Of a stretch of 34,965 nt of DNA, positions 7,690-34,965 are shown piece after piece (the first letter of the stretch is position 1; every line of letters starts with the position of its first letter). The DNA is from an uncultured Eubacteriales bacterium (GTDB lineage: Bacteria > Bacillota > Clostridia > Christensenellales > CAG-917), in contig ONYW01000015.1 of assembly GCA_900322215.1 (NCBI GenBank), positions 1-34,965 on the forward strand, written 5' to 3'. The notes beneath the pieces are model-generated. The model saw nothing but the letters and a program-made list of their open reading frames with translations. It had not been told where the DNA came from and did no database searches. A program made the translations under genes and the position numbers.

Positions 7690-7777
7690 TGGTGCCGGTG
7701 GTCGGACTCGAACCGACACGGAGGGTTAGTCCACAGGATTTTGAGTCCAGCGCGTCTGCCAGTTTCACCACACCGGC
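7690..7777 (-). tRNA. tRNA-Leu (anticodon CAA)
   Basis: The 88-base gene folds as a class II tRNA with a long variable arm. The acceptor stem is GCCGGTG/CACCGGC, the anticodon loop CTCAAAA and the T loop TTCGAGT. The 3' CCA is encoded. It is the last gene of the Gln-Lys-Leu unit. Confidence 0.95.
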
Positions 7778-7783
7778 TAATAG

Positions 7784-7806
7784 AAAACACTCTATAAAGA
7801 GTGTTT
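7784..7806 (-). terminator. Terminator-like hairpin between tRNA-Lys and tRNA-Leu
   Basis: AAAACACTC and GAGTGTTTT pair around a 6-base loop and are followed by TTTTC on the minus strand. It may be a processing site or partial terminator, because tRNA-Leu has no obvious promoter of its own. Confidence 0.45.
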
Positions 7807-7807
7807 T

Positions 7808-7883
7808 TGGTGACCCACCGGAGATTCGAACTCCGGACCATCGCATTAAAAGTGCGGTGCTCTACCGGCTGAGCTAGTGAGTC
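7808..7883 (-). tRNA. tRNA-Lys (anticodon TTT)
   Basis: 76 bases, acceptor GACTCAC/GTGGGTC, D-arm TAGCTCAGCCGG, anticodon loop CTTTTAA, T loop TTCGAAT, encoded CCA. Confidence 0.95.
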
Positions 7884-7887
7884 ATAG

Positions 7888-7962
7888 TGGCAGGGGTAGC
7901 AGGATTTGAACCTACGAATGCCAGAATCAAAATCTGGTGCCTTACCGCTTGGCGATACCCCT
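7888..7962 (-). tRNA. tRNA-Gln (anticodon TTG)
   Basis: 75 bases, acceptor AGGGGTA/TACCCCT, anticodon stem CCAGA/TCTGG around TTTTGAT, encoded CCA. First gene after the promoter at 7979-8007. Confidence 0.95.
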
Positions 7963-7978
7963 ACGCATCACGCAGTCT

Positions 7979-8007
7979 ATCTTAGCACTAATCGTGAAAT
8001 TTGGCAA
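7979..8007 (-). promoter_or_regulatory. Promoter for the tRNA Gln-Lys-Leu unit
   Basis: TTGCCA (8002-8007), 17 bases and TAAGAT (7979-7984) on the minus strand, just upstream of tRNA-Gln. Confidence 0.65.
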
Positions 8008-8053
8008 CAAAATAAACCGCATTTTTTATATAAACCTTTCGGTTTTTTCAAAG

Positions 8054-8131
8054 TGGGGTGAATAGTGGGATTCGAACCCACGACCTCCAGGGCCACAACC
8101 TGGCACGCTAACCAACTGCGCTATATCCACC
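8054..8131 (-). tRNA. tRNA-His (anticodon GTG)
   Basis: Acceptor GTGGATA/TATTCAC with the histidine-specific extra G at -1 (position 8131) opposite discriminator C. Anticodon loop TTGTGGC, encoded CCA. Confidence 0.95.
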
Positions 8132-8153
8132 ATACTGCGGACTTTCCGTCCGC

Positions 8154-8230
8154 TGGCGAGCCTGAAGGGATTCGAACCCCCGACACACGGCTTAGAAGGC
8201 CGTTGCTCTATCCTGCTGAGCTACAGACTC
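8154..8230 (-). tRNA. tRNA-Arg (anticodon TCT)
   Basis: 77 bases, acceptor GAGTCTG/CAGGCTC, anticodon stem ACGGC/GCCGT around CTTCTAA, T loop TTCGAAT, encoded CCA. Confidence 0.95.
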
Positions 8231-8238
8231 AAAAAAAA

Positions 8239-8312
8239 TGGAGCGGGTGATGGGAATCGGACCCACGCAATCAGCTTGGAAGGCTGACATTCTACCATTG
8301 AACTACACCCGC
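8239..8312 (-). tRNA. tRNA-Gly (anticodon TCC)
   Basis: 74 bases, acceptor GCGGGTG/CACCCGC, anticodon stem TCAGC/GCTGA around CTTCCAA, encoded CCA. First gene of the Gly-Arg-His unit. Confidence 0.95.
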
Positions 8313-27853: not shown

Positions 27854-29629
27854 TTACAGTTTTTCACTTATTGTCTTTGATTTCAGTTTCTTTTGAAGCG
27901 AAGTTATCTCTCTCACTGCCGCTCGCTTTTCGTCCTGATCACTCATAGTGTTGTAGGCGGTTTTTAGATATTCGAGCCTACCCGATATGTATTCGTTTGC
28001 GAGCAATACGAGACAGTCTGCAAAATAGTCCGCCTCTTGTTTGTTGTTAAGTTTCCAGTCGAGATCCAAAATCTTGTTTATCTCCTGATCGTCCTCGACG
28101 TGCGCGTACATCTGCCCGACGCTGAACTTCTCACCTCCGAGGGAGAGCGCATAGTCAAAAATCTCTTGATGCTTCGGATGCGCCAGCCATTCGCGCTTTA
28201 TCTCCGCGAGATTTACGCAGGGCGAATTGTCCATAATCCTGTTCATAACGTAGCGGGAAGATAGCAAGATCGTGTCCTCTTTCTTTTCGACTTCCGCTTC
28301 GTTTTTGTCGTCTTTGATTTTGAAACCGGTTGTCGAAAGCATATCTTCGAGAGTGGATATGGAGACGCGGGATAGCGAGGAAACTCTCTCGAAATACACC
28401 TCTCTCACCGCGCGGTTGTCCACTTCTTTCAACACTCGAAGTGCCGCGCTGACATACTTTGCACGCCCGTCGACCGAACCGAGGTCGTATGCCTTTTCGC
28501 AAAGGGAGAGCTTGTATTCGATGACGGGAAGAGCCTCTTTCATCTTGGCGAGATATGCGTCCGCTCCGCCCTCTCTCACGGTCTCGTCGGGATCTTTGCC
28601 GTCGTCAAGAGAAATGACTTTGACGTTCAAGCCCGCCGCCGAGAGCGGTTCTACGTTCTTGACAGTCGCGTGTCTGCCCGCGTTATCGCCGTCGTAGGAG
28701 ACGTACACGTCGTCGACAAGGCGTTTTAATTCTCTCGCCTGTCCGTCCGTGAGCGCGGTCCCCATGCCCGCGACCGCGTTCTTTATGCCGACTGCGCCGA
28801 GGGATATGACGTCCATATAGCCTTCGACAAGAATAAGTTCTTTATACGCCGCACCGTTCTCCTTTTTGTCGCGCTTTATGAAGTTCACGCCGTACAGCGT
28901 CCTGCTCTTGTCAAAAAGTTGCGTATTCGTGGAGTTTTTATACTTGGCGACGTCCTGCTCGCCGTGGAAGATACGCCCGCCAAAAGCGACCACTTCGCTC
29001 ATGCCGTTCATGATAGGCACGATAACGCGGTTGCCGAACGCATCGCGCGGATTTGTCGCGCTTGCGATGAGTCCGCAGTCAACGAGGTCTTGAAGTTTGT
29101 ACCCCTTGCGGCGGAGATATGCGGGCATACTGTCAAAGTCTATGGACAGCCCGAGTCCGTACCTCTTGGACGTCTCGTCGTTTATGCCGCGAGATGCCAA
29201 ATATTCCCTCGCTTCCTTGCCCTTCTTCTCGTCGAGCAGGTTGTTGCGGTAATACCTCGCCGCGTCGCGCATGAGTTGTTTCAAGACTTCCTTGTGGTCC
29301 TTCTTCTCCTGGTAGTGCGGGTCCATCTTGAACTCGGGGAGAGGCATATTCGCCTTGTCCGCCAAGATCTTCACCGCGTCGAAGAATGACACGGACTCTA
29401 TCTCTTGCACGAACTTCACCACGTCACCCGACGCCCCGCAACCGAAGCAGTGATAATAGGCGGACTGTTGGTTTACGCAAAAAGAAGCCGTCTTCTCATT
29501 GTGGAAAGGACAGCACCCAAAATACCTCCCGCCCTTCTTCGTGAGCGGAACGTAGGTCGACACCACTTCGACTATGTCGTTCTTAAACTTGAGTTCTTCA
29601 AGAAATTCAGGAGTAAACCCTTGCGCCAT
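27854..29629 (-). CDS. dnaG: DNA primase
   Basis: 591 residues, full length. The CHC2 zinc finger has Cys40, His43, Cys61 and Cys64. The TOPRIM core has [13 protein letters not shown] (catalytic Glu) and [14 protein letters not shown] (metal-binding Asp). The C-terminal region (about 440-591) is the DnaB helicase-binding domain. It makes RNA primers for replication. It is the first gene of dnaG-rpoD-trmK-nif3-zinc ribbon, with GAGGAA upstream. The promoter is less clear than others in the window. Confidence 0.98.
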
Positions 29630-29755: not shown

Positions 29756-29790
29756 AAAAGAGCCCCTTGCCTTTGCAAAGAGCCCTTTGT
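29756..29790 (-). terminator. Terminator after the metalloprotease-Hint gene
   Basis: On the minus strand GCTCTTTGC-AAAG-GCAAGGGGC (29762-29783, with G-T pairs) is followed by TCTTTTT. It separates the AT-rich island from dnaG. Confidence 0.7.
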
Positions 29791-29804: not shown

Positions 29805-32489
29805 CTAACAATTCCAAAAATATGAATATCTATTTATTAATTCTCTAAGCCTATCATATGTAATTAAACCTTTCCCAATAGATACTTTCAAATATTGACC
29901 ATTAAACGCATTAAACACTATTTCTGGGATTGGTATAATCTCATTAAACTCCTCATATGTAAACAAACCATATGTATTAATATCATCTAGCATTGCATTT
30001 TCATCATATTTACTTAATGCTGGGTCTACATCAAAAATATTAATTAACCCATCCATTTCGCCAGGAATTGATAATAAGCCATTTACAAATAAGCATAAAT
30101 GCCCATATGTAACAGGACTCCAAGAAGACGTTATTTCTGTATAATGATTAACTGCAATAAGTTGCACTTCATAACTAATTAGTTCATTATTCTCTCTGCT
30201 TTGTTTTTTAAACCAATGACCTATGTATTGAGATGCATCATCACGCATATAAACATACTGATTTAGGGTAATATCCCACAACGCATGTTCGTCAATAATT
30301 TTCAACTTACTGTGATCTGAAAAAGATAATTCAATTATTTCGTATTCATCTTCTTGCTCGTAATCTAAATACATCAGATTGGCAATATCATAACTTCCTG
30401 TATAAAAATTCCAAACAAGTAATTGTTCATCACCCACCAACGATTCTACCGCTACTTGGCTACCATCAGCCAATGTAATTAGCGTTCCAGCTGCAACGCA
30501 AGACTTTTTCCATTTAGCATACAAAATTCCATTAGGCGCACTATTAATACTACTGTATTTAGTCCCGGAAAAATTAGAGGTGGTATACCATCCTTCAAAT
30601 TTATAGTCTTGTCGCGTTGGATTACTTATATCATTATTTATAGTATTTGATGGATTGTTAATACTTTTTGTAAATGACACAATGTAATTTGTATTTAATG
30701 TGCAACCCCATACTACTGGTCTATTAGAATAATTCCAATTTGTACTCCAAGATGTTGGTGCCACATTATATGATGTATAGATAGTCAAACTATCACATGC
30801 CAAAAATGCATTAGCACCTATATTTGTTACGTTACTATTTATTATTAAATCTGTAACACTAGTATAGGCAAATGCATAAGCTCCAATGTGCGTGACAACT
30901 TCAGGGATATAGTTTATCTTCCCTGCCCTAATAAATGCTCCTTCTCCTATATAGTTCACCGTTTGAGGCAATTTTAAAGTTGCTAAAGAACACGAATCAA
31001 AAGTATAATCTTCTATTCTTGTAACCAAAGTTTGAGACATATTGATATTTGTAAGATTGTTGCAGAATTGAAAAGCTCTATTCCCTATAAAACGAACTGT
31101 ATTAGGTAAAGAAATTCCTGTTAATTGGCTTTGATTCCTAAATGCCATAGCACCAATACCTACTACAGGTTTATTGTCAATAGTTTCAGGAATAGTGATT
31201 ATTCCTCTAAGCGGACTATATGTCCCGGTTATAATCACTTCATTATCGACTGTTTGTGTTAAAAACACTGGCTTAGTGTATGTTTTGTAATCAGAGTAAT
31301 ACCCACCTGTTGTTTGTGAATATGTTTGATATCCAGCTACTGTAACTTTTATCGTTTCACCTGACCAACTTAAAACAGTATCCCATTGTGTTACAGACAA
31401 CTCAATTTGAGTATTATTTGTAGATATACTTAATTCATTATCACCAAATTCACTTATTATCTTAATAGTATAGGAATCATTAGGGAAATAAGTGCTCCCA
31501 CCTTGCCCAAACCACATAAAAACAGGAGGCACAGTAGAAAAGTGTTCGTCAATTGCGGTACTATAATATATTCTAGGAGCAAAATTATAATATGTCAGTA
31601 TTCTACCAAATGGTTCAACATGTTGTGGATAAGTTGAATAAAAATTATTAACAAATTCTGAAAATGTTTTAATATGTCCAGATGTCGTAACATTCCACCA
31701 ACTTTGAAACCCTATTGTAATTGGCTCATCTACTATGTCATCTTCACTGTAGTAGTCATACACATCCCAAAGTACTGCTATAATTGACAATTCGCAGCCA
31801 TCACCTTTCCTAATACTAGTTGTTTCAACATCATAATTTGTAGCCATATTATAAGCGTGGTATATTGTATCACATGTCCCGAATATATTGATCAAGTGAT
31901 TCTTCCAATACTGTTGTGCTATAAAGCTAAATGCGGTTGCCCATCCTTCCGACCATGCCAGTCGCATTCCTTCTATTTTCGCATTAGCATATCCTGGATT
32001 AGCACAATTACATGATGTGTGCTCTTCCAATGCATAATGGTCTATCATACTATTTGAAAAATAATGAGTACCACCCAGAGATTGAATAATGTCTAATTCG
32101 TAAGAAATATGGTGTCCATATTCATGCATAATTACATCCCACGATGCATATGGCTTAGGCATCCCTGTTTCAACTGTCGATGTTTCTGCAATATGAATCA
32201 TATTTGACGAATTATTATAATAACACCCATTTGACGGATATTGTATTGAAACACTAGATGGAGAATGTCCCATCATATTCCAAGCAAAATCTCGCGCAGT
32301 GATAGCTGCTTGAGAAATCTGAAATGCGCGGCCCAACACATAATGCATATTAATACGCATATCTATTGTTGTTGTTGAACCTGTTTCAACGTTCATGTGC
32401 GCCTGATCTGGAGACTGGTAATAATATAAATCTCCATTCGTATTAACGACTGACACATTTCCATCCCCAGCATAAACTTTTATAATTAA
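29805..32489 (-). pseudogene. C-terminal part of a secreted metalloprotease - BspA-like LRR - InlB-type repeat - Hint protein, split by a frameshift
   Basis: The frame is open from 32489. A GTG at 32456 gives 883 residues, numbered here. Order: gluzincin-like protease with HEYGHH (111-116) and a downstream EGWATAF (170-176) likely giving the third zinc ligand; a beta-rich region; LRR_5/BspA-type repeats with IP-TV--IG--AF spacing (about 415-560); an InlB/Flg_new-type repeat ending LYAKWKKS (583-652); a Hint domain from Cys653 (CVAAGTLITLADGSQV) with its His motif in IIDEHALWD; and a 75-residue tail. The signal peptide lies in the other frame, at 32486-32884. Adding one base near 32486-32489 joins them into 1026 residues. 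Base composition is much more AT-rich than its neighbours. It could be a real pseudogene or a sequencing error. Confidence 0.8.
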
Positions 32490-32884
32490 TCATATCCACC
32501 ATTTTCAAGGTCTAAAAGCTGATCTTTATTTTTAAATCCAAATGAATAATTGCCTTCCTGATCTGTATATACAGTGCCGAGATTTTCTGTTATACTTGGT
32601 GTATCATAATCACATATTTTAACCATAACACGCCTCATAGGGTGTACAACATCATAATCATCCACCCATTCAATTTTCCCACTTATATATGTATTCTCTT
32701 CATTTGAGGATGCTTGTTGTTCCTCATTTATTTGAGAAAGATTATTTTGTAATTCTTCATTTGAATTTGCATATGCTGTATTAATTGGGGTAAAACAAAC
32801 CAATAGTACTACTATAGGTAATATGAGAAACAAGCAAATTAGTATTATACAAAGCATATTTCTATGTTCTTTTAAAACTGTCAT
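32486..32884 (-). pseudogene. N-terminal part (signal peptide and carboxypeptidase-regulatory-like domain) of the frameshifted metalloprotease-Hint protein
   Basis: 132 residues: a hydrophobic signal or anchor (about 10-38, ending NTAYA, a plausible signal peptidase site), a Gln/Asn/Glu-rich linker, then the start of a regulatory-like beta domain (YISGKIEWVDD...GTVYTDQEGNYSFGF). It stops at GGYD-TAA, exactly where the next frame opens as LIIKVYAGDGNV, which is how such a domain should continue. AGAGAGG precedes the ATG. The gene follows the upstream lipoprotein by 18 bases, so both share one promoter. Confidence 0.8.
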
Positions 32885-32902: not shown

Positions 32903-33454
32903 TTATACATTTGTCAAAATGATTTTATTGTCTTCTATATATTCATATTTTAGATATACACTTAAAATTCCATCGTAACTCTTTACTTCATTTCCCAAAT
33001 AATCTATTCCGACATATGTGCCTTTAATACAAAAACACAATCCTCCCGATTGATGCAGGAATAATTCTTTGGGAATAGTAATACGCTCGTTAAACCAAGC
33101 ATCTGTTATCCTATACTTTTCCGAAACAAAATTTTCATCCACATGTCTTATTTTATATTCTATTGAAGTATCCCAATTAAATCCTGATTTAAATGCGTAA
33201 AAAAACATATCAAACGATGGTATATTGTTCCCGCTTAAATTCTCATGCTCAATATTAGGACTAAAATATCCCCCATAATAAAATATCGGGGAGACATTAT
33301 CAATATCATAACAGTCTTGGTCAATTACACATTTCCCAACATAAATAGGTTGTGGCAAATCATTTATTTCTAAAACCGAACTTTGATTATCACAACTAAT
33401 AAACAGAAAACAATTTAAAAACAAAGTTATTAGAAAAAAACACAACTTTTTCAT
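32903..33454 (-). CDS. Putative lipoprotein of unknown function in the AT-rich island
   Basis: I do not recognise this 183-residue protein. It begins MKKLCFF, then a hydrophobic stretch and FISC with Cys21 as the likely lipid-bearing residue. The mature part is mostly beta-like and rich in Tyr, Asp and Asn. AGGAG lies upstream of the start, and a consensus promoter is within 50 bases. It is the first gene of a two-gene unit with the metalloprotease-Hint protein. It might be a partner, inhibitor or immunity-type protein, but nothing in its sequence proves this. Confidence 0.75.
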   Translation of the reverse strand: MKKLCFFLITLFLNCFLFISCDNQSSVLEINDLPQPIYVGKCVIDQDCYDIDNVSPIFYYGGYFSPNIEHENLSGNNIPSFDMFFYAFKSGFNWDTSIEYKIRHVDENFVSEKYRITDAWFNERITIPKELFLHQSGGLCFCIKGTYVGIDYLGNEVKSYDGILSVYLKYEYIEDNKIILTNV

Positions 33455-33474: not shown

Positions 33475-33503
33475 TTTATAACAAATATTAATCAGTATGT
33501 CAA
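33475..33503 (-). promoter_or_regulatory. SigA-type promoter for the lipoprotein-metalloprotease unit
   Basis: TTGACA (33498-33503), 17 bases and TATAAA (33475-33480) on the minus strand. Confidence 0.85.
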
Positions 33504-33682: not shown

Positions 33683-34965
33683 TTATCTCCTTCCGCCGGG
33701 TTGCATTCCGCCAGTTTGACCGGGCATTCCGCCCATGTTTCCGCCTTGTGTGCCAAGGTAGGAGACGGCTTGGGAGAGCGTCACTTCGCCCGCACTTGTG
33801 CCGTTTACGTACACCGTGTAGGTTGCGCCGCTCGTGAGTTTGTCGCTTGAAAGAATGACGGATTGAGAAGTCTTTGCGGTTGTGTGTTCAAGGACAACAC
33901 CGCCGTTTGCGTCTTTGAGTGTGACGGTCGTGCCTGCCGCAAGGGTTGAAGTCGCCTGGTACACGATGACGTTTTGCGCGCTGCCGTTAGACGGTGTTTC
34001 CACCATACCGACTGCGCCGACTGCCACAAGTGTACCGCCGTCCACGACGACGCCCGCTTCCGTGTCGAGTGCGGAGTTGCCGCCGTTTGTCGGACCGTCG
34101 ACGTACACTTCGCCGCCCGAGATGTAAATTGCGTTGTTGCTGTCAATACCATCGCCTTGTGCGTTCACTCTAAGCACACCGCCGCTTATGATGATATAGC
34201 AGTTTTGATTGACGTAGCCCATTTGAGCGTTCGTGCCGTCCGCCGCGTTCAAGCCGTCGTCTTGAGAAGTCAGGGTGATGTCACCGCCTGCGATTTCGAG
34301 TTTTGCAGCCTCGATACCTTCATAGCAGTTGTTTATGACGATTGTGCCGTCTGCTACTTTCAACACTTCTTCTGCGTGAATACCGTCGTCGCCGCTTGTG
34401 ATGTTCAGCGTACCGCCGTTTACAAACAGGTTGCCGTTTGAATGGATCGCGTCGTCGTTTGCGTTGATTGTGATATTTCCGCCCTCGATGACGATTGCAT
34501 AGTAGTCGGCAGTTGTGAGTTCGACCACCTTGACGCCCTCGTCGGTATCTTCGTCCGTCGCATCTTCACGGTCACCTTTTGCAAGTTCGGTTTCAAGCAA
34601 ATCTTCCGTAACTTCGTATTCGAGGCTACCCGCTTTGAGACCTTTGCCGTCCGCATTGTCGCTTGACGTCTCCGTGATTTTGCTCGGAGCGCCGCCGTTT
34701 GTAGTGACGTTTATGTCACCGCTCTTGATATAGAGCAAGTTTGCCGCGCTTATGCCGTCGTCACCGCTCACGATAGTTATATCGCTGTCTTCGACGTAGA
34801 TATATTTGTATGTCACCGCATAAGTTTCTTCAAGGTCGGCATAGTCGATTTCGTTGTCGTTTTGAATGCCGTCCGTGCCTGCCGTGATATTTAGCGTTGC
34901 GCCGAGGAGCACAACTGCGTCGTTTCCGCGGATACCGTGCTTGCCGGCAACGATAGTGAGCGTCG
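33683..34965 (-). CDS. Carbohydrate-binding beta-helix protein (Cthe_2159/DUF4353-like), 5' end beyond window
   Basis: At least 427 codons; the frame is open to the window edge, so the signal peptide and true start are missing. The visible part is a chain of short repeats of the form ITSGDDGIHA/GNITINANDDAIHSNG, about 20-25 residues each, typical of a right-handed parallel beta-helix with calcium-binding Asp residues at turns. Clostridial Cthe_2159-type proteins bind cellulose and acidic pectin sugars at the cell surface. After the helix there is a small beta domain (SAQNVIVYQATSTLAAGTT...) and a Gly/Met/Pro-rich C-terminal tail. Base composition is like the bulk of the window, unlike the island beside it. 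Confidence 0.85.
   Translation of the reverse strand, partial: TLTIVAGKHGIRGNDAVVLLGATLNITAGTDGIQNDNEIDYADLEETYAVTYKYIYVEDSDITIVSGDDGISAANLLYIKSGDINVTTNGGAPSKITETSSDNADGKGLKAGSLEYEVTEDLLETELAKGDREDATDEDTDEGVKVVELTTADYYAIVIEGGNITINANDDAIHSNGNLFVNGGTLNITSGDDGIHAEEVLKVADGTIVINNCYEGIEAAKLEIAGGDITLTSQDDGLNAADGTNAQMGYVNQNCYIIISGGVLRVNAQGDGIDSNNAIYISGGEVYVDGPTNGGNSALDTEAGVVVDGGTLVAVGAVGMVETPSNGSAQNVIVYQATSTLAAGTTVTLKDANGGVVLEHTTAKTSQSVILSSDKLTSGATYTVYVNGTSAGEVTLSQAVSYLGTQGGNMGGMPGQTGGMQPGGRR

Follow-up and report, generated by a model that had tools for sequence, protein, structure and literature searches.

Introduction

In the classical layout of polymorphic toxins, a conserved N-terminal delivery part is followed by a variable C-terminal toxin, and immunity genes that persist as orphans are a published theme. 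Toxins of the type VII secretion system (T7SS) are accompanied by strings of immunity paralogues, such as EsaD/EsaG and TelC/TipC (PMC9484751), and the Hog domain of hedgehog proteins (PF01079) is described as a Hint domain combined with an SRR/ARR (PMC2362128). Here we analyze a window of 34,965 nucleotides, the whole stretch of contig ONYW01000015.1 (assembly GCA_900322215.1) from an uncultured gut bacterium of the order Christensenellales, whose minus strand carries a two-gene cassette with affinities to each of these systems. The first gene (P0003) encodes an intact lipoprotein, and the second is divided between two frames (P0002 and P0001), the latter ending in a predicted Hint fold and a helical domain. 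The sequence belongs to a 65-contig draft from a metagenome bin.

We consider it probable that this cassette was acquired horizontally, that its second gene was recently inactivated, and that intact relatives encode a self-processing exported enzyme together with a cognate inhibitor. The cassette would have been inserted between a Cthe_2159-type gene and dnaG, and its second gene would once have specified a single exported protein composed of a signal segment, a transthyretin-like domain, a gluzincin-like metalloprotease, leucine-rich repeats (LRR), a Flg_new repeat, and the Hint and helical module. A shift of one base immediately ahead of the protease region would sever the signal and the first domain, and an exported working product is therefore not expected. 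In intact relatives the protein would be exported and would form a Hint thioester at the first Cys, the Hint domain would free or attach the enzyme part with assistance from the C-terminal helical domain, and a membrane-anchored partner would bind the enzyme part matched to it and most likely serve as a cognate inhibitor protecting the producer. The window cassette has a broken enzyme beside an intact partner, the pattern known from lost effectors and kept antidotes, and it would be a member of a mobile family of hydrolase/lipoprotein cassettes, possibly acting as effector and immunity protein.

A one-base frame split

Along the minus strand the genes run in the order P0004 (34912-33683), P0003 (33454-32903), P0002 (32884-32486), P0001 (32489-29805) and a dnaG-like gene (29629-27854). 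The features of the cassette genes are as follows (E, expect value).

32903..33454, minus strand: P0003, intact 183-residue lipoprotein with lipobox ...FISC; first cassette gene and candidate protease partner
32486..32884, minus strand: P0002, 5′ piece of the broken gene as read from the sequence; signal or transmembrane segment plus the beginning of a beta domain of transthyretin-like type
29805..32489, minus strand: P0001, 3′ piece of the broken gene on the same reading; 894-residue open frame
32486..32489, minus strand: the break, a four-base overlap of P0002 and P0001 in different frames
31269..32489, minus strand: gluzincin-like metalloprotease region, P0001 residues 1-407, with HEYGHH at 122-127 and conserved Glu 181 (alignment of nine sequences)
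30786..31157, minus strand: BspA-type LRR, P0001 residues 445-568 (PF13306, E 2e-28)
30513..30650, minus strand: Listeria-Bacteroides (Flg_new) repeat, P0001 residues 614-659 (PF09479, E 2e-8)
29808..30506, minus strand: Hint and C-terminal helical domain, 233 residues, ending the protein (alignment of 81; structure model)

A one-base frame split is present in this sequence. Translation of the minus strand gives P0002 as a 132-residue open frame with a hydrophobic N-terminus, ending in ...GGYD and then TAA, and its match to TTR-52 in Pfam is weak (E 0.057). P0001 is directly preceded by TGA and has GTG at 32456 as its earliest possible start, and the listed open reading frame (ORF) at 29805-32456 is only the portion that follows this GTG. 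The original prediction had reported two abutting frames here, with both halves otherwise intact; its coordinates are right, the overlap lying at 32486-32489, and both frames are open apart from the break.

P0002 and P0001 were kept apart as separate queries against relatives. In one uninterrupted relative of 786 residues (L006), P0002 matches residues 2-114 (E 5e-10) and residues 1-414 of P0001 match residues 124-559 of the same protein (E 2e-55). The protease occurs in 11 of the 397 genomes of the order, the window genome included (E <= 1e-5); a first scan of genome contigs with the protease query had returned no relative. Eleven stretches from 10 of these 11 genomes were checked for frame, and 10 of them hold the N-terminal piece and the protease in one frame and in that order, two of the ten N-terminal matches being weak (L138, E 0.004; L139, 24 residues, E 2e-5). 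The eleventh (L134) gave no match to the N-terminal piece. The N-terminal piece, protease, LRR and Hint part all lie within one unbroken ORF in L132 (1167 residues), L133 (1175), L135 (1175) and L139 (1623), and these parts follow one another in the same way in L131 and L134, where a single in-frame TGA interrupts each gene. A search of the fetched stretches with the query parts gave no Hint match for L136, L137, L138, L140 and L141. Because the separately searched pieces share one frame in 10 of the 11 relatives, P0002 and P0001 are, as far as sequence comparison can tell, one broken gene. This agrees with the single ancestral gene originally proposed, and the contrary case named with that proposal, of two normally separate genes, is ruled out by the same observation. 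The usual state is an intact copy in a single gene, and broken copies also occur; the split by itself is ordinary, and a frameshift alone matters little. By eye, the TGA codons at L131:3177-3179 and L134:1631-1633 align with a Trp of relatives, perhaps by chance.

The residues H122, E123, H126 and E181 are identical in all nine aligned sequences, and correspond to the HExxH motif and downstream Glu ligand of gluzincins. No Pfam match to the protease part was found at E <= 1, and the protease profile matched nothing among PDB sequences; the stretch after Glu 181 is presumably immunoglobulin- or fibronectin type III-like. The metalloprotease assignment of the original prediction is thus carried by the HEYGH motif and the conserved downstream Glu, but not by a family match or a good structure model, and the secreted N-terminus, LRR and Hint domain that it had also described are supported by translation, by PF13306 and by the predicted Hint structure, respectively. 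It did not mention P0003, the helical domain that follows the Hint fold, the insertion of an AT-rich cassette, or the family beyond this locus.

The Hint and helical tail

The 233-residue tail was modeled with high confidence (predicted local distance difference test score, pLDDT, 96.1; predicted template modeling score, pTM, 0.91). Both Foldseek and VIA matched this model to hedgehog, BIL and intein Hint folds, with a hedgehog structure (1at0) as the best Foldseek match, and the tail is accordingly predicted to have a Hint fold, after which the model places a helical domain of approximately 80 residues. Among the 81 aligned sequences, the first Cys is conserved in 80 (the remaining row is cut), His74 in all 81 and His136 in 74, and in the consensus the Hint part closes with the conserved sequence VNGMLSMPG. 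The window copy of the Hint part has no Pfam match at E <= 1, PF01079 included; this family matches 4 of the 7 members of alignment A1, with a best E of 4.4e-4. A search of PDB sequences with the Hint profile gave only ataxin-type matches, at E 0.29 or worse, and two others, all taken as chance.

The tail resembles the Hog domain in its Hint fold, in the conservation of the N-terminal Cys and of a B-block-like His, in its C-terminal position, and in the presence of an extra domain after the Hint fold. However, it scores below the PF01079 cut-off (19.2 bits for L079 versus 29.7), it is bacterial, and its extra domain is helical; an equivalence of this domain to the SRR/ARR, like any adduct of the tail, is hypothetical. 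The modeled fold also resembles that of BIL domains, but in the tail a conserved helical domain follows the Hint part and is the last portion of the protein in 79 of 82 copies. Unlike inteins, which have a C-terminal His-Asn and a C-extein, these proteins have no C-extein, and VNGMLSMPG stands at the conserved end of their Hint part.

This tail module forms a large group that Pfam scores below cut-off, ending varied exported proteins (subtilase, M64, gluzincin and others) in 79 of the 397 genomes; a contig search with it returned 179 stretches, of which 80 were kept. According to Pfam, the front parts include subtilase S8 (L060, L064, L104), M64 (L070) and an alpha/beta hydrolase (L088), with weak C39 matches in L079 and L085. 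These occur with or without LRR and Flg_new, and other front parts have repeats only or no match. Inspection by hand of 64 Hint genes whose 5′ ends are not cut by a contig end revealed in-frame stops flanked on either side by homology in seven (L052, L053, L066, L071, L083, L092, L108), frame changes in three (L075, L076, L108) and lost N-terminal parts in five (L055, L072, L074, L096, L116). We recognized no description of this tail module or of the gene pair in the open-licence PMC literature.

Several further occurrences of the tail were observed. C-terminal Hint fragments with no front part, some with a stop, are present in G232:C47, G214, G262, G225, G272, G347 and G259, and may be decayed copies or cassettes. 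Giant open frames of 3338-4500 residues (L007, G116, G137, G397, G230) likewise terminate in the tail. In viral contigs from IMG/VR (L163:402-8668; L164, L165), a 767-residue protein encoded right after the phage portal gene carries the same tail at 41% identity, and an arrangement in a genome of the same genus (L008) looks similar. The cultured Pumilibacter intestinalis has a frame with LRR and the Hint tail in which no signal segment is visible (L096:5260-6693).

The partner lipoprotein

P0003 matches no Pfam family at its cut-off. It resembles genes located upstream of metalloproteases in L132 (E 9e-5), L137 (5e-4) and L138 (5e-10), and did not match the upstream lipoprotein of L139. Partners of this type precede tailed metalloproteases (window, L132) as well as tailless ones (L137, L138). 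More generally, a gene with a strict lipobox is the immediate upstream neighbor of 20 of 52 testable Hint genes versus 38 of 402 other ORFs (P 3.5e-7).

Co-variation was assessed in 26 pairs (25 loci and the window) picked for a visible anchored upstream gene, a few of which have a transmembrane anchor instead of a lipobox. Similar enzyme parts accompany 22 of 23 similar partner pairs, and none of 10,000 shuffles reached this number (mean 4.6, maximum 14). Hint identity hardly differed (64.7 versus 61.7%), and the tail is therefore exchanged while partner and enzyme stay together. The adjacent partner is thus specific to the catalytic part, as in effector-immunity pairs, with the caveat that neighboring genes are linked.

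A search with P0003 reached six other genomes. In the stretches fetched, L182, L183, L184 and L185 carry a P0003 relative but neither protease nor Hint tail; that of L183 stands before an L079-type partner and then a 177-residue stub of an L079-type enzyme, and that of L185 is followed by an exported-looking ORF of 63 residues. Two tandem P0003-like genes that are 74.5% identical (L186:176-820 and 1336-1965) follow the end of a Hint gene that lies at the contig edge and is therefore a cut gene, not a stub. No P0003 match was found in L187 on re-check. An anchored gene precedes a Flg_new and Hint remnant in L055 and matches the P0003 group marginally (pairwise E 0.002-0.008; profile E 1e-11).

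Such cassettes share with PT-HINT polymorphic toxin/immunity systems their mobility, the possession of a Hint domain, a variety of catalytic domains to which small partners are matched, and the occurrence of partners that stand without an effector. In contrast, the cassettes are inverted, with the variable enzyme N-terminal and the constant part C-terminal, so that Hint-tail proteins lack the constant N-terminus and variable C-terminus of classical polymorphic toxins; moreover, the partner is upstream and membrane-anchored, and toxicity of the enzyme is hypothetical. The inverted layout with a Hint tail was not found in open-licence PMC literature. Gram-positive hosts and tandem paralogous partner genes, as in L186, are features in common with Firmicute T7SS toxins, from which the cassette protein differs by a signal-type N-terminus and the Hint tail; to our knowledge, cassette-type hydrolases are not among T7 substrates. 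An RHS-type polymorphic toxin was rejected, the RHS repeat being absent from the window genome, as was a known anti-phage defence protein, PADLOC giving no match for P0001-P0003 and only subtilase and IetS models for the L060 subtilase.

A broader proposal, which we regard as rather unlikely, is that these cassettes constitute an inverted polymorphic weapon-antidote system of gut Clostridia. Swappable N-terminal hydrolases (metallo-, subtilisin-, papain-like, M64, alpha/beta hydrolase) would be joined to a constant, self-processing, hedgehog-like Hint and helical tail that releases the enzyme or fixes it to a surface adduct, and a cognate upstream membrane-anchored immunity protein would be kept as an orphan after enzyme loss, the window having a broken enzyme and an intact antidote. 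Should the tail process itself, it would represent a bacterial equivalent of the hedgehog tail, equipped with a C-terminal partner domain of its own, and the origin of Hog-type processing could then be tested in a bacterium. Should the lipoprotein be an antidote, it would add a class of interbacterial protease weapon in uncultured gut Clostridia.

The insert and its flanks

The cassette is absent from corresponding loci of related genomes. In the three genomes most similar in dnaG (L166-L168; identity approximately 82-89%, the G006 copy being in two pieces of 89% and 74%), P0004 lies directly beside that gene and P0001-P0003 have no match; P0001-P0003 are likewise absent at six further loci of the genus. 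The GC content of the insert is 32.4% versus 49.3% in the rest of the window, and GC at third codon positions is 17-23% versus 61-67% for P0004, dnaG and one other gene. The flanking features are as follows.

33683..34912, minus strand: P0004, Cthe_2159-type gene, upstream neighbor of the insert (PF14262, E 2e-32)
33475..33503, minus strand: promoter-like TTGACA-17-TATAAA before P0003, found by exact string search and absent from the consensus-scan list
29757..29788, minus strand: terminator-like hairpin of 14 pairs downstream of P0001, followed by T-rich sequence; 8 such sites in the window versus 1.5 expected
27854..29629, minus strand: dnaG-like gene, downstream neighbor of the insert, present in 20 of 21 genomes of the genus; the name is one we assume from resemblance

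Because the promoter-like and terminator-like sites bracket the insert, and homology of the flanks resumes outside them, the insert has the appearance of an independent transcription unit of two genes. By consensus scan, the window contains promoter-like sites at about the number expected by chance (31 versus 27.3).

Alternative explanations

Several observations weigh against the reading of an acquired and recently inactivated enzyme with its inhibitor. The structure model of the protease region is poor (pLDDT 48). An upstream partner is absent in 5 of the 10 testable metalloprotease genes (L131, L133, L135, L136 and L069; L134 has no room for one), as well as in the majority of more distant Hint genes. 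Linkage by adjacency can explain part of the co-variation of partner and enzyme, which alone is no proof of binding since adjacent genes travel together, and L058-L060 are an exception in having the partner and tail in common and not the enzyme part. In a matched comparison, breaks were counted in 8 of 69 Hint genes versus 8 of 76 neighbors, each neighbor event coming from one query and some possibly being noise; with no excess shown, the proposal that breakage is unusually frequent in Hint genes was dropped. The dnaG gene, which is normally essential, is split in G006, 1 of the 20 genomes of the genus with dnaG, and draft errors therefore do occur. Finally, an empty-site relative (L167) is itself AT-rich (34-40% GC), so that an AT-rich donor may be close kin, and the insert may have been lost in other genomes instead of gained here.

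It is quite possible, if somewhat short of an even chance, that the partner lipoprotein is instead an export chaperone, an activator or a surface anchor, and that the cassette is nutritional or adhesive. The LRR, the Flg_new repeats and the secreted proteases all suit substrate binding, half of the testable metalloprotease genes do without the partner, and Hint-tailed genes with LRR/Flg_new only and no hydrolase exist (L063, L077). However, a chaperone or activator alone would be of little use, and P0003-like partners stand without a protease or Hint tail in the L182-L185 stretches, in L183 in a row with another partner type before an enzyme stub, and in L186 two are in tandem.

An assembly or read error in the metagenome bin, with one intact gene in the organism, is a possibility that we rate well below even, and we place a true recent inactivation somewhat above it. 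The draft nature of the source and the split dnaG of the related draft G006 are what such an error would predict, as is the openness of both gene halves. P0001 would be expected to take up approximately 19 random substitutions before acquiring a new stop, and a true break therefore need be only recent, not brand new. However, the break is outside any homopolymer or short repeat tract (a GGGG run, away from the break, is the only one within 40 bases on either side), and rpoB of the window genome is open (1286 residues). In the order, 145 of 151 genomes were matched by this rpoB control, a few rows being short and some at contig ends, and no internal stop was present among the matches listed. 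The split dnaG at G006:C92:12746-14516 (L156, L162, L168) lies in two frames, owing to either an assembly error or a real break.

A functional split, through the phase variation that the original prediction had offered or through programmed frameshifting, is very improbable: although the frames overlap and a GTG 33 bases into the second open stretch has GGGGA upstream, so that low-level reinitiation is conceivable, its product would be without an export signal, the region is in one frame in relatives, and the sequence argues against both mechanisms because the break has neither a repeat tract nor a nearby in-frame X_XXY_YYZ slippery heptamer, the only one being at 32876, near the gene start.

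Other features of the window

Six tRNA genes (Leu, Lys, Gln, His, Arg, Gly) are clustered at 7690-8312 of the window.
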